Below are positions 9,634 through 32,125 of a DNA stretch of 34,168 bases, in pieces. Under the pieces are notes generated by a model. It ran no database searches and was not told where the DNA came from. It was given only the letters and a program-made list of their open reading frames with translations. The DNA is from an uncultured Bacilli bacterium. Lineage in GTDB: Bacteria > Bacillota_I > Bacilli_A > RFN20 > CAG-826. Position 1 is the stretch's first letter. Each line of letters begins with the position of its first letter. The stretch is taken from contig CAJOML010000007.1 of the NCBI GenBank assembly GCA_905235705.1, positions 1 to 34,168 of the forward strand, in the 5' to 3' direction. Both the position numbers and the translations under genes were made by a program.

Positions 9634-12537
9634 TTATTCGGTCCTTAAGCAGGTGACGGGGTCTTTATTGGCGGCGATACGGGAGGGAATGAAGCCGGAA
9701 ACGAAAGCCAAAGCGACGGATAAGACAATCAAGGAAATCGCGGCAATCGGGTTAAGCGCGGCAATGTTGCCTAGACCTCTGCCCGGGAAAATGTGGTCCA
9801 AAATCAAATTGATGGGGATACATGCCAAATAAGTGAAGGCAATGCCGATAATCCCGGCGGTAAAGCCAACGATGACGCATTCGGCTTCGAATAAGCGACC
9901 AACGTCACGTTTACGTCCGCCGCAAGCGCGTAAGACACCGATTTCCTTCGTTCGTTCAACGACGGAGACATAGGTGATAATTGCCGTCATGACGGAAGAG
10001 ACGACAAGGGAAATCGAAGCGAAGACGATCAAAACGGCCGAGATGACATTAATCATCGTTCCAAGGGACTCGGTTAAATCCGCCATGATGTCGCTATAGG
10101 AGATTTCGTTATCGGGATGGGTTTTATTCCAATCATCCAAATAAGCCTTCAAGGCATCTTTGGTCGTTAATGACGATGGGAAGATTAAGATCGAAGTGAC
10201 CAATCCATATGAATTTGAGGCGGCGACTAGATTCATAATCGAACTGTCTCCAGGCTTGAATAAGTCCGCAAAAGTCGTTGTTCCGGTAAATAAATCGGTA
10301 AGGAAATTCTCAATGTCAACTTTCGGGAAAGTCGCCCCTAAATTACGGCAATTGGCCAAATAAGAGGAGATGGAGGTGTAATAATATCCTTTCCCCGTAA
10401 CCGTATATTCGCGGAAAGCTTTGGGAAGTTGGTTGGTAAGCAAAGAGGAAATCGTTCCTAGGGTAGTTGAGGAGATGTTCTCGTAGGAAGATTCGTTGAT
10501 TTCTTCGCCACCTAAATCGGTAAAGACTTTGGCAAGTTCGTTGGCGAAATTTTGCACGATTGTTTTGCCATCTTGGTCAGGGTCGCTGCTATAAGGAATA
10601 ACCCAGTTGTCACGTAAGATGGAACCAAGTTTTTGGGTGCTAGTCCCTTGGGCATAATCATCTGCCATGATCTTGCTTAATTTTGGGGTATAAGCCAAAG
10701 ATGGCGGCATAAGGGTCAAAGGCGAGGTTTCGGTTGGACGGAGGACGCCGACGATTTTGCAATCGATGCCTTGGCGTGAGGTGTCGTTATAAATATCCGT
10801 ATCGGAATCGACATCGATATAAGAAATGGTTTGTTTTCCGACCTCTCCGGTGACGGTAGCCTCATATTTATCGCCGACTTGGTTGAATTTCAAATCGAGA
10901 TTTGGATAGCAATCCACTTCATAGGTGTGAATCATCGAATCCAAATCGGCAGGATTTGAAGGAAGCTTGTAATATTGGGAATTGGTAAAGCATTTGTAGG
11001 TGCGATAGGCGGTGTCGCCTTCGCCTTCATAAAGAATATCCGCGAAATCGAATTTCAAATTCCCGGCGATGCGTTCGGTTTCGAAATTGGTGGAAGAACT
11101 ATAAAAACCAAGGTTCTTCATCGTCGAAAAATCGATACGGTTGCTCGAAGTTAAGATAATGGCTAATTCGTCTTCTTTCTCCGGGAATTTGCCATAAATG
11201 GTGTCATACATCGAAGAGAGACCTTTTTGATCGCCGATTAATTCGTGCATGATAGTAGTCGGAAGGGCGGTGACCGAAGAGATGGCGCTGCCAAGAAGAC
11301 CGGCAGAGGAATATTGGTTAATCGAACGGATCTTATTTGAATTGCCATCGTTAGTGAGGAAGTGGAAATTCAAATCTTTACGATTATAAAGAACCGACAT
11401 GGCATCACCATAAACGGGGCATTTGGGGTCGTTTGTGATACGGTCGATATAATCAAAATATTCTTGGCTGAAATCGTTATATACAACCGTCGTCAACGAG
11501 GCTGAAGGATTATAGACGGTAAGGCTTGGGTCGGATGGATAAAGCTGGATGTCTTCTTCGACCGTTGTTGCCACGCGGGTGGAAACGGGGGTGATGGAAA
11601 TCGGAACCGATGAGGCAATCGAGGATTCGACGTTGCTCACATATTGGGAGAAACCGTTATTGGTAGCTAAAACCAAAGCCACCCCGATAATCCCAAAAGA
11701 ACAGGCGATAGCCGTCATGATTGTGCGGCCTTTTTTGGTTAAGACGTTATTTAAGGAAGAATGAAGGGCGGTCAAAAAAGACATCGACGTGTGTTTGTTT
11801 TTTTCTTTGCCAATCACTTCTTGTTCGCCGGCGATCAAAGGTTTGGAATCGGAGATGACTTCCCCGTCTTTCATATGGATGATGCGGTCGGCATAAGCCT
11901 CTGCCAATTCGCGGTTATGGGTAACCATAATGACGCAGCATTCTTTGCCGACTTCTTTGACAAGATCCATAACCTGGACGGATGTCGTTGAATCCAAAGC
12001 CCCGGTGGGTTCGTCGGCTAAGATGATGTCGGGGTCATTGACTAAGGCCCTAGCGATCGCGACACGTTGCATTTGACCGCCGGAAAGTTGGTTTGGTTTT
12101 TTCTTCAAATATTCGCCTAAGCCGACTTTTTCAAGGACTTCGGTCGCTTTCTTGGTTCTATTTTTGGCCGAGACGCCACCGAGTTGAAGGGAAAGTTCGA
12201 CGTTTTGCAGGATGGTGAGGTGAGGGATGAGGTTATAGGATTGGAAAACGAAGCCGACGCGGCGATTACGATAAGAATCCCAATCCGAATCTTTAAAGTC
12301 TTTGGTGGATTTACCTTCGATGAGCAAATCCCCATCGGTGTAATGGTCTAAACCGCCGATGATATTCAAAAGGGTGGTTTTCCCCGAACCGGAATGGCCT
12401 AAGATGGCAACAAATCCTTTTCGTGGAAAACTGACGGAGAGGTCTTTGATCGCGGTGAATGGTTTTTTGTCGACGTAGTAGTCCTTCTTGATGTGGGATA
12501 GTTCAAGAAGGATCTCGTTGGATGGATCCTTTTCCAT
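9634..12537 (-). CDS. ABC transporter, fused ATP-binding and FtsX/MacB-type permease
   Basis: Walker A GHSGSGKTT, signature LSGGQMQR, Walker B DIILADEPTGALD; C-terminal FtsX region VVERTKEIGVLRACGGRKRDV; large extracytoplasmic region between. Confidence 0.9.
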   Translation of the reverse strand: MEKDPSNEILLELSHIKKDYYVDKKPFTAIKDLSVSFPRKGFVAILGHSGSGKTTLLNIIGGLDHYTDGDLLIEGKSTKDFKDSDWDSYRNRRVGFVFQSYNLIPHLTILQNVELSLQLGGVSAKNRTKKATEVLEKVGLGEYLKKKPNQLSGGQMQRVAIARALVNDPDIILADEPTGALDSTTSVQVMDLVKEVGKECCVIMVTHNRELAEAYADRIIHMKDGEVISDSKPLIAGEQEVIGKEKNKHTSMSFLTALHSSLNNVLTKKGRTIMTAIACSFGIIGVALVLATNNGFSQYVSNVESSIASSVPISITPVSTRVATTVEEDIQLYPSDPSLTVYNPSASLTTVVYNDFSQEYFDYIDRITNDPKCPVYGDAMSVLYNRKDLNFHFLTNDGNSNKIRSINQYSSAGLLGSAISSVTALPTTIMHELIGDQKGLSSMYDTIYGKFPEKEDELAIILTSSNRIDFSTMKNLGFYSSSTNFETERIAGNLKFDFADILYEGEGDTAYRTYKCFTNSQYYKLPSNPADLDSMIHTYEVDCYPNLDLKFNQVGDKYEATVTGEVGKQTISYIDVDSDTDIYNDTSRQGIDCKIVGVLRPTETSPLTLMPPSLAYTPKLSKIMADDYAQGTSTQKLGSILRDNWVIPYSSDPDQDGKTIVQNFANELAKVFTDLGGEEINESSYENISSTTLGTISSLLTNQLPKAFREYTVTGKGYYYTSISSYLANCRNLGATFPKVDIENFLTDLFTGTTTFADLFKPGDSSIMNLVAASNSYGLVTSILIFPSSLTTKDALKAYLDDWNKTHPDNEISYSDIMADLTESLGTMINVISAVLIVFASISLVVSSVMTAIITYVSVVERTKEIGVLRACGGRKRDVGRLFEAECVIVGFTAGIIGIAFTYLACIPINLILDHIFPGRGLGNIAALNPIAAISLIVLSVALAFVSGFIPSRIAANKDPVTCLRTE

Positions 12538-23951: not shown

Positions 23952-25316
23952 TTAACGATTTAGCTTGGCTTTTAGGTCCTTAACGGCCTTTTGCATATCG
24001 GGGTCGGTTTTGAGTGAGTTTTCCACTTTTTCGACACCGCGCATAACGGTGACGTGGTCTTTCCCGCCGAAGGTTTGACCGATTTTGGTGAAGGGGGTTC
24101 CAAGCAACGCCTTGTCTAGATACATGGCGATATGCCTTGCCATGGCGATTTGGGCAACCCTGATTTTGCCGGTGATTTGAGACGGGGTCAGGTTGTAATA
24201 ATCGGCGACGACGGCGATGATACGGCTCTCGGTAAGTTTGCTCCCCGGTTCGGAGGAGACGTCTAACCCGGAAACCGCTTGGGCGGCGATTTCGGCGGTG
24301 ATACGTCCCGAATGCTTCAAATCGATGGTGGTGAAGATAAGCTTATTTAACGCCCCTTCAAGTTCCCTGACGTTGCGAGAAAAACGCCTGGCAACAGTAG
24401 AAATAACCTCGGGATCAAAGTCATCGACGGACATTCCCGAAGCGACGATTTTTCTCCGCAAAATCTCTTCGGAAGTTTGCAAATCCGGCTTTTCTAGCGA
24501 TAAAACCAAGCCTTGGGAGAACCTTGTTTTTAGCCTTTCGTCCATCCCGTCTAATAAATTTGGATGGGTGTCGGAAGTGATGACGATTTGCTTGTCTTTG
24601 GAAATCAAATCGGCGAAGACGACGAAGAACATCTCCATCGTCTTTTTGCCCCTGGTTAGAAGTTGGATATCGTCGACGAGGAAGACATCGACTTCGCTTT
24701 TGAACCAACGGCTCATCGTCTGGTTTTCTTTATAGCCGGTCGCGAATTTGATGTATTCGTCAACGAATTCGGCGGCGGAGACGCATAGGACTTTTAAAGA
24801 AGGCTTTTCGCTGACGATGGCGTTACCGATGGCATGAAGCAAATGGGTTTTGCCAAGCCCCGAATCGCTATATAGAAGCAAAGGGTTAAACATCTTTCCC
24901 GGGTTGCGGGCGATCATCAAGGCCGCTTGGTAGGCTTGGCGGTTAGAATCCCCGACGACGAAATTCTCAAACGATAATCTCGGATTTAGCTTGGCATCAG
25001 GGAAAAACGGTTGCTTTGTTTCGGCTTGGTCCTTGGCTTTATTTAGACCGGCTTGGTCAACGGAGGAAAAGGAAGGGGTGAAATCGGTGCCGGTTACTTC
25101 AAGCAAAGCTTGGGAGATGAGCTCTTGGTATTTGCTTTTTAAAATCATCGAGGCAATCGAAGTGGATGCGACGACATGAACGGTCTTTCCTTCGATGCGG
25201 TCGATGTAGGATTTGTCAAAGATGGATTCGTAGACTTTGGCGTCATTGACGCGGATACGACAACGATCTAGGACTAGGTCCCAGAGCTTTGTGATTTCGG
25301 ATACGGTTTCACTCAT
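23952..25316 (-). CDS. dnaA: Chromosomal replication initiator DnaA
   Basis: LNPRLSFENFVVGDSNRQAYQAAL, LLYSDSGLGKTHLLHAIGN, VFLVDDIQLL, GGKDHVTVMRGVEKVE; start 25316 (MSETVSEITKLWDLVLDRC) with SD GAGGAA preferred over 25427. Confidence 0.96.
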   Translation of the reverse strand: MSETVSEITKLWDLVLDRCRIRVNDAKVYESIFDKSYIDRIEGKTVHVVASTSIASMILKSKYQELISQALLEVTGTDFTPSFSSVDQAGLNKAKDQAETKQPFFPDAKLNPRLSFENFVVGDSNRQAYQAALMIARNPGKMFNPLLLYSDSGLGKTHLLHAIGNAIVSEKPSLKVLCVSAAEFVDEYIKFATGYKENQTMSRWFKSEVDVFLVDDIQLLTRGKKTMEMFFVVFADLISKDKQIVITSDTHPNLLDGMDERLKTRFSQGLVLSLEKPDLQTSEEILRRKIVASGMSVDDFDPEVISTVARRFSRNVRELEGALNKLIFTTIDLKHSGRITAEIAAQAVSGLDVSSEPGSKLTESRIIAVVADYYNLTPSQITGKIRVAQIAMARHIAMYLDKALLGTPFTKIGQTFGGKDHVTVMRGVEKVENSLKTDPDMQKAVKDLKAKLNR

Positions 25317-25389
25317 AAACGGGTTCCTCGCGAGGAAAATTATAGCGAGAGGGCGTGCGTTTTCTATCAATTTTTCGTCACCTTTTAAT

Positions 25390-25627
25390 TTATTCACATT
25401 TTCCACCTTGAAAAAGCCCGAAATCATCGCTTTTTGGAAAGTTATTCACTTTTGCACATTGTGGAAAAGTTGTGAAGAAAAACCGAACTCGTTCGATTTT
25501 GTGGAAAACCTAGGTTTGAAAGCCTTTTCAGCACGTCTGCATTTTCGAATAAAAATGTGATAGCGTCGGGTGTTTTTGGCGTTTTTCCCAAAAATGTGAG
25601 AAATCCATTCACTTGGTATGTGGAAAA
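25390..25627. promoter_or_regulatory. dnaA-rpmH origin subregion: DnaA-box cluster
   Basis: TTATTCACA 25390-25398, TTTTCCACC 25399-25407, TTATTCACT 25442-25450, TGTGGAAAA 25460-25468, 25500-25508, 25619-25627, in AT-rich intergenic DNA at the strand switch. Confidence 0.7.
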
Positions 25628-30004: not shown

Positions 30005-30778
30005 ATGAATCTATTTGATTCCCATTGCCATTTGAACGATGAAGCTTTCGGCGAAGATATCGCCGAAGTCCTCGCTAGGGCCAAAACGGCCGGATTAACC
30101 CGTATCCTTTGCCTTGGCTATGATATTCCATCTTCGAAAAAAGCGATTGAGCTCGCTTCTAAATATGACATCGTCTATGCCGCGGTTGGTTTTCATCCGG
30201 AAAACCTCGAAGGATATACTTTGGAAGATATTCGGGAAATCGAAAAACTCGCCCATAGCCCCAAAGTCATTGCCATCGGCGAAGTGGGACTTGATTATCA
30301 TTACGAGAAAAAAGAAGAGACAGGTGAAAAGCAAAAAGCCTTCTTAATTGCCCAAATCGAACTCGCCAATCGCTTACATTTACCTTTATCCATACATGCG
30401 CGAGACGCCTCTGAAGACATGTATGAAGTCTTATCCGCCAGCCCTCCTCGATTTGGGGCGGTCTTGCATTGCTATTCGGGTTCGGTTGAAATGATGAAGC
30501 GGTTCGCTAAATTGGATTTATATTTTGGTTTCGATGGTCCAATTACTTATAAAAACGCGGTCGTGCCTAAAGAATGCGTGGCGGCTTGCCCAAGCGATCG
30601 CCTACTAATCGAAACCGACTCCCCCTACCTCTCTCCCGTTCCGTTAAGAGGAAAAAGAAACGAACCGGCGAACGTCGTTCATATCTTTGATATGGCAAGA
30701 GCCCTTCGTGGCATAGAAACGGAAGAGATGGAAAAACAACTCAACGAAAACTTTGAAAGATTGTTCCACGTGAAATGA
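30005..30778 (+). CDS. tatD: TatD-family DNase
   Basis: MNLFDSHCHLND, GEVGLDYHYEK, LPLSIHARDA, LLIETDSPYLSP. Confidence 0.93.
   Translation: MNLFDSHCHLNDEAFGEDIAEVLARAKTAGLTRILCLGYDIPSSKKAIELASKYDIVYAAVGFHPENLEGYTLEDIREIEKLAHSPKVIAIGEVGLDYHYEKKEETGEKQKAFLIAQIELANRLHLPLSIHARDASEDMYEVLSASPPRFGAVLHCYSGSVEMMKRFAKLDLYFGFDGPITYKNAVVPKECVAACPSDRLLIETDSPYLSPVPLRGKRNEPANVVHIFDMARALRGIETEEMEKQLNENFERLFHVK
30762..30777. promoter_or_regulatory. parS: parS-like ParB site (14/16)
   Basis: TGTTCCACGTGAAATG versus TGTTCCACGTGAAACA, at the tatD stop/rnmV start junction. Confidence 0.5.
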
Positions 30779-31317
30779 ATACTAAAACTCCCTATGACGC
30801 CGTAATTGTGGTCGAAGGCACCTCCGACATGGCTTTATTGAGCTCTTTTTTGGATTGTGACATTGTCATCACCAACGGTTCAGATGTTCCACGTGAAACA
30901 ATCGATTATCTTAAAACCCTTTCTTCGACCCGTCAAATCGTCGTCCTCACCGACCCCGATTCCCCGGGGAAAAGAATTAGGGATATCTTAGATGAGAATA
31001 TCCCTGGTTTATATCACGCCTATATCCCAAAAGAAAAATGCATCAAGCATCATAAAGTCGGCATTGCCGAAAGCTCCAAGGACGATATTTTGGAGGCTTT
31101 ATCGCATCTTCAACCACCTGTTTCTAAAGAAAGAGGCAATCTCACCTATGCGGATTTATTTGAACTAGGGCTAGTTGGGGCGCATAATTCTTCCTACCTA
31201 AGGGAAGAACTTGGGAAAAAGCTCCATCTTGGTCAATGTAACGCGAAAACCATCCTCAAACGTCTTAACGCCTTAAACCTTAGCAAAGAAAACATTCGGG
31301 AAACCATTTATGGATGA
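30775..31317 (+). CDS. rnmV: Ribonuclease M5 (5S rRNA maturation, Toprim)
   Basis: YDAVIVVEGTSDMALL, IVVLTDPDSPGKRIRDIL, VGIAESSKDDILEAL; between tatD and rsmA as in Bacilli. Confidence 0.9.
   Translation: MNTKTPYDAVIVVEGTSDMALLSSFLDCDIVITNGSDVPRETIDYLKTLSSTRQIVVLTDPDSPGKRIRDILDENIPGLYHAYIPKEKCIKHHKVGIAESSKDDILEALSHLQPPVSKERGNLTYADLFELGLVGAHNSSYLREELGKKLHLGQCNAKTILKRLNALNLSKENIRETIYG
30885..30900. promoter_or_regulatory. parS: parS ParB-binding site (16/16)
   Basis: TGTTCCACGTGAAACA, identical to a canonical B. subtilis Spo0J/ParB site, inside rnmV. Confidence 0.85.
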
Positions 31318-32125
31318 AGCTGCCTATTTCGAAAATATCGCTTCCTATAAACTTCTAGCCAAAAAAGAAGTCGGCCAGAATTTTCTTGTCGATTCGCGTG
31401 TTGCGGGTTCTATCGTCGCTTCATTAGAAGCAAAAGAAGGCGAGAAGGTATTGGAAATCGGCTGCGGAACAGGGGCTTTGACCTATTTCCTTGAGCAATC
31501 TAAAGCTAGTGTCGATGCGATTGATATCGACGAGGCAATGCTAGCTAAAACGGGTAACGATTTCGCTTCATCTGACCATCTTAAGGTTTTTTATGGCAAT
31601 GCCTGCGATTACGATTATTCGTCTTATCAAAAGATCGTTGGCAATCTTCCCTATTACATCACTTCGTTAATTTTAGAGAAGGTTCTTTTGGGCGCGAAAA
31701 AAGCATCACGCCTTGTCTTTATGGTCCAAAAAGAAGCGGGTGAACGCATTTTGGCTAAGCCAAGCACGAAAGATTATGGACCTTTGAATATCTTGCTTGA
31801 TCTGCTTTATCAAAAGAAAAAGATCCTAACCGTGTCACGGAATAGCTTTGTGCCTGCTCCCCATGTTGAATCCTGCGTCTATCAATTTGACCGCAAGGAA
31901 ACACCTATCCCCTATGGCGAAAAAGTCTACCGCTTGGCTTTGGAGATGTTTAAGTTCCGCCGCAAAACGATTTATAACAACCTTAAAACCTATTTGGGGG
32001 ATGGCGAGATTGCCAAAGCCATTCTTAGCGAGGTTCACCTAAACGAAAACCTTCGTCCCGAGAATCTTTCGCCTAGCCAATATGAATCCTTGTTTCAATC
32101 CGTTTCAAAACGGAAAGGAGAGTGA
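31310..32125 (+). CDS. rsmA: 16S rRNA dimethyladenosine transferase RsmA/KsgA
   Basis: KKEVGQNFLVDSRVAGSIV, VLEIGCGTGALT, IVGNLPYYITSLIL, FKFRRKTIYNNL. Confidence 0.95.
   Translation: MDEAAYFENIASYKLLAKKEVGQNFLVDSRVAGSIVASLEAKEGEKVLEIGCGTGALTYFLEQSKASVDAIDIDEAMLAKTGNDFASSDHLKVFYGNACDYDYSSYQKIVGNLPYYITSLILEKVLLGAKKASRLVFMVQKEAGERILAKPSTKDYGPLNILLDLLYQKKKILTVSRNSFVPAPHVESCVYQFDRKETPIPYGEKVYRLALEMFKFRRKTIYNNLKTYLGDGEIAKAILSEVHLNENLRPENLSPSQYESLFQSVSKRKGE

Follow-up and report, generated by a model that had tools for sequence, protein, structure and literature searches.

The window analysed here is the whole of contig C7 (34,168 bp), which belongs to a Bacilli MAG with a bin of 1.26 Mb in 88 contigs (76.6% complete). 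Family relatives of this host include uncultured Erysipelotrichaceae and Candidatus Alloenteromonas entries. The relatives found through RnmV were Bacilli MAGs, many of them from rumen or gut, filed under Erysipelotrichaceae, Bacillales, Mollicutes or Candidatus Alloenteromonas. The genes are arranged in the order dnaN and dnaA (minus strand), a cluster of DnaA boxes, rnpA, yidC, jag, mnmE, tatD, rnmV, ksgA and a GHMP kinase gene, which is probably ispE. The origin region is marked by dnaA (23952..25427, minus strand; PF00308, PF08299). We detected ten matches to TTWTNCACA in the window, where 2.1 were expected, and five of the ten fall at 25390-25627, just upstream of dnaA, one of them within the dnaA start. 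This cluster of DnaA-box-like sites is the likely oriC. Elsewhere in the window, a gene at 9634-12537 (minus strand) encodes a 967-aa protein with an ABC ATPase domain and an FtsX-like permease domain; an ABC ATPase motif is also present in ORFs of G017, a complete relative, that are 685-938 aa long.

The genes of interest lie on the plus strand: tatD (30005..30778), encoding a TatD-family DNase (PF01026, E 2e-84; TIGR00010), rnmV (30775..31317), encoding ribonuclease M5 (TIGR00334, E 8.5e-40, over cut-off; PF13331, PF01751), and their downstream neighbour ksgA, also called rsmA (31310..32125; PF00398). Two 16-bp sites of the palindromic parS consensus type, both on the plus strand, occupy the tatD-rnmV junction and the rnmV gene. 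The first, parS-2 (30885..30900; TGTTCCACGTGAAACA), matches the consensus TGTTNCACGTGAAACA at 16/16 positions. It begins with the last letter of a GAT codon and continues through GTT, CCA, CGT, GAA and ACA, so that it is embedded in the D-V-P-R-E-T codons of rnmV. The second, parS-1 (30762..30777; TGTTCCACGTGAAATG), lies 123 bp upstream of parS-2 and matches at 14/16 positions. It spans the final codons of tatD (stop TGA, 30776-30778) and the start codon of rnmV (ATG, 30775-30777), and its two mismatches are its last two letters, the TG of that ATG. The affinity of parS-1 may be low, since both mismatches are at the edge of the site.

Both sites are 5.3-5.5 kb from the 5' end of dnaA; the distance to its 3' end is about 6.9 kb. 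In relatives carrying both on one contig, dnaA was likewise close, no more than about 8 kb from the site or from rnmV. At up to three mismatches on both strands, the two sites gave four matches, compared with 0.81 on average and at most 3 in 100 dinucleotide shuffles; from base composition, the expected number of exact matches is 7e-5 for the window and 0.003 for the whole bin. A chance origin was ruled out by the shuffles, the base composition and the conservation described below. A sequence-only reading of this DNA had reported the 16/16 and 14/16 matches, their reading frames, a distance of about 5-7 kb to dnaA, the improbability of a chance 16-mer and the lack of parAB nearby. The measurements above agree with it on the first four, and a scan of all large ORFs in the window for parA and parB, which found neither, agrees on the last. 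Its suggestion that other parS sites cluster around the origin did not hold: at up to two mismatches, we found no further parS-like site in the bin, and the tatD-rnmV pair is the sole locus in G017.

ParB and its genomic context

Profile searches identified an rsmG-parA-parB operon on contig C10 of the same bin, in keeping with the earlier prediction of a ParB/Spo0J homologue elsewhere in the genome. The parB gene (L003:1045-1920) is the only gene in the bin that matches PF02195. Its product scored 89.7 bits on TIGR00180 (cut-off, 58.45) and exceeded the cut-offs of PF17762 and PF02195; its operon partners are rsmG (TIGR00138) and a Walker ParA gene (PF13614). Because the closest ParBs were those of the same-genus genomes G096 and G110 (56-58% identity), we ruled out that this parB is a binning stray.

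In family relatives with both on the same contig, parB was located 139 kb (G083, measured from rnmV), 199 kb (G047), 219 kb (G078), 250 kb (G041) and 490 kb (G019) from parS. In four genomes from other families of the order, parB lay 20-40 kb from rnmV. The parAB genes have thus been relocated away from parS in this family. Within about 1.5 kb of parB in the loci scanned, no parS was found beyond one weak match with two mismatches (L086) and a site with one mismatch at the parA 5' end in G004 (L157:2807) and G038 (L156:982). The parA-end sites are perhaps autoregulatory.

The predicted DNA interface of the C10 ParB consists of S172, R173, N178, T179, G201 and R204 (Caulobacter numbering). R173 and G201, found here in SHQSRSQIAN and GILSYGHAR, specify parS, and Noc has Q173 and R201 at these positions (PMC7383237). 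Three otherwise conserved DNA contacts are altered in the alignment (Q162V, G170H and K171Q). The CTP motifs GERRxRA and ENxQRxxL are replaced by GRKRLYGA and ADNRDQRES, and this rewriting extends over the family: GERRxRA appears as GRKR, rarely GRRR, and ENxQR as variants around ADxRDxR. The glutamate of GERR is replaced in every aligned family member, G77 and R80 being kept and E78 and R79 not; among other members of the order, 7/11 retain GERR. The ParBs at loci L063-L092 and L168-L186 carry the rewritten CTP-pocket motifs, yet nearly all of them have R173 and G201. B. subtilis ParB is impaired in spreading and in loading Smc by the substitutions N112S, G77S and R80A (PMC4442127). With its CTP pocket altered in this way (GRKR in place of GERR; ADNRDQR in place of ENxQR), the ParB described here may use a different clamp mechanism, and we treat the rewritten motifs as a lead.

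A separate observation concerns G112, in which both sites (L044, positions 1483 and 1605) share the altered core TGTTCCATATGAAACA. The recognition region of its ParB reads SHSSRPQVTN, in which Q is replaced by S and S by P. Reader and site may have co-evolved here.

The two sites could be genuine ParB sites that serve chiefly for loading Smc-ScpAB at the origin, the situation in Bacillus subtilis, rather than for ParA-driven movement. For both B. subtilis and S. pneumoniae, it is established that ParB recruits Smc at origin-proximal parS (PMC7333895; PMC4442127). Against this, we found no ScpA (PF02616) and no SMC over the cut-off in this bin (77% complete), and a motif search of G017 (100% complete, 94% of it readable, with 68 kb of its contig C1 masked as N) gave no SMC- or ScpA-like ORF. 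On contig C7 of G017 (L285:2126-7683), the gene order is recG-rnc-ftsY-ylxM-ffh, with rnc followed directly by ftsY and no smc between them. In Bacillus, smc normally lies between rnc and ftsY. One incomplete bin and one relative amount to a lead, not to proof, that Smc-ScpAB is absent from the family. Smc loading by ParB-parS may not apply here, because Smc-ScpAB was not found, and we consider it improbable as the main function of the sites.

It is far less probable that the sites bind a Noc-type nucleoid-occlusion protein, a ParB descendant, instead of ParB. The ParB of the bin does score 111.7 bits on the Noc model TIGR04285, and its best PDB match is 7nfu, a Noc structure. However, this score is far under the Noc cut-off of 315, and the Noc residues Q173, K179, K184 and R201 are replaced by R, T, S and G, so that positions 173 and 201 are of the parS type. 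The sites themselves carry parS letters, from which the NBS differs at positions 1 and 6 (PMC7383237), and the sole PF02195 gene of the bin sits after parA and rsmG. We rejected Noc and NBS on the site letters, the ParB residues and the model score.

Conservation of the sites within and without codons

The codons of parS-2 were compared among 23 same-genus rnmV genes that had been found by an RnmV search, and also after the addition of 17 family members. Since the 17 were obtained partly by searching for the site itself, the genus set is the unbiased one. In this set, the Val codon was GTT in 23/23 genes, the Arg codon CGT in 20/20 and the Glu codon GAA in 21/21, and the Thr codon was mostly ACA. 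The remaining synonymous positions of rnmV were close to the codon-usage expectation, that is, saturated (mean excess, 0.066; sd, 0.153). The parS codons showed an excess of 0.20 to 0.71 (Mann-Whitney p 7e-5 against the rest of the gene). In the genus set, no six-codon window ranked above that of parS, and in the genus-plus-family set the two parS sites took the first two places among non-overlapping windows. At parS position 5, which is N in the consensus, C and T alternate, giving CCA or TCA and therefore Pro or Ser. The synonymous letters are frozen while Pro and Ser switch, indicating that the DNA is held and the protein is free to change. Selection acts on the DNA rather than on the encoded peptide.

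The site also persists where there is no rnmV to encode. In genus g9, rnmV was not found in any of the five genomes, and four loci lack it between tatD and ksgA (L151, L153-L155). In the two g9 loci that were read completely, ksgA comes next after tatD, and the gap between them carries parS as non-coding DNA. An alignment of four g9 species displayed GTTCCACGTGAAACAT as an unbroken, invariant 16-letter block between the two genes. In genus g29, a second parS lies inside ksgA (L143:1816, L140:651), where it again encodes V-P-R-E-T in an unrelated protein. The retention in g9 and the site in ksgA in g29 together remove the coding explanation.

Relatives have a counterpart of parS-1 at the matching place, mostly with 0-1 mismatch within the genus, and the spacing of the pair is 121-123 bp in most same-genus genomes. 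Because 121, 122 and 123 bp all occur, it is probably the coding frame, rather than helical phase, that fixes this distance.

We counted the site, at up to two mismatches at the tatD-rnmV place, in 81 genomes of the family that have an rnmV locus. Of the 50 that carry parB, 43 had the site, against 1 of the 31 that lack it (Fisher p 2e-14, a value that overstates independence because the genomes share ancestry). Genera g1, g8 and g30 each include genomes with both the site and parB and genomes with neither; G044 (97% complete), unlike the rest of g1, has neither. The single genome with a site and no parB is G080, and other members of its genus have parB. Seven genomes with parB (G012, G049, G031, G055, G062, G079 and G092) had no site at this place within two mismatches. 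The sequence-only reading had tied the sites to parB and had named free variation at synonymous positions as contrary evidence. The co-occurrence upholds the tie, and synonymous variation was not free in the relatives, as the invariant GTT, CGT and GAA codons attest.

These results bear on the possibility that RnmV needs V-P-R-E-T and that its commonest codons happen to spell parS. Although this stretch falls within the Toprim domain and the family commonly has the peptide, such a coincidence has a negligible probability: the synonymous letters are fixed and the N of parS still switches between Pro and Ser, RnmV of the Bacillus type and that of other families in the order differ in their residues at this place, the site outlives rnmV in g9, the same peptide-coding DNA recurs in KsgA, and the site vanishes along with parB. 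We rejected it on the synonymous test and on the sites kept without rnmV.

A probable chromosomal centromere and its relation to known systems

On the sites, their conservation, their loss together with parB, their retention without rnmV and the presence of both parA and parB, we consider it almost certain that the two sites constitute a chromosomal parS centromere, which would be bound by the ParB of the rsmG-parA-parB operon and moved by ParA. Binding, spreading and ParA-driven movement are modelled on the ParABS literature (PMC7333895). ParB dimers would load on both palindromes and then spread over adjacent DNA, and ParA would move the ParB-DNA complex. Lying only about 5 kb away, the sites would belong to the origin region that is copied first, so this region would also be the first to separate. 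The sites would be read as DNA, their codon setting being incidental to function, and would in turn constrain the peptide V-[P/S]-R-E-T and the choice of codons.

A broader proposal, to which we give somewhat less than even weight, is that the family runs ParABS without Smc-ScpAB, with rewritten ParB CTP motifs and with one two-site centromere far from parAB. ParB-parS would then be selected purely for ParA-driven movement of the origin, and the nucleotide switch may have changed. Should both the lack of Smc and the altered CTP motifs be borne out, the family would offer a natural way to tell which functions of ParB-parS depend on Smc loading and which on the canonical CTP switch. The locus is a clean comparative case of a centromere that is selected in place within codons, outlasts the surrounding gene and is lost with its reader.

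The location of the sites may predate the family, because the rnmV-type site pattern was also matched in three genomes from f3, a family of this order. A literature search for parS together with rnmV found no mention, which says little, as most subscription papers were outside the search.

parS is a well-known element, and the tatD-rnmV sites are of its chromosomal kind. It is usual for parS sites to lie inside genes. Noc/NBS resembles the present case in having a ParB-related reader and a similar palindrome layout, but both the site letters and the residues here are of the parS type. Ectobacillus panaciterrae shares the neighbourhood: an exact parS is located between its metS and tatD genes, at a distance of 2.9 kb upstream from rnmV. 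The metS-tatD parS of Bacillaceae thus lies before tatD, whereas the sites described here lie at the tatD/rnmV junction and in rnmV. One B. subtilis parS, presumably located in metS, is the site at +4 degrees. This position is given for one of the nine parS sites of that species (PMC12322038). The present sites resemble those of B. subtilis Spo0J in the TGTTNCACGTGAAACA 16-bp palindrome, in the proximity to dnaA and in the rsmG-parA-parB operon in the genome. What sets the present case apart is its ParB and Smc context: the CTP motifs of ParB are rewritten and Smc-ScpAB was not found, unlike in B. subtilis. The layout differs as well, with one two-site locus here against nine sites there, and with parAB 139-490 kb away in relatives against a position beside the origin in B. 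subtilis.
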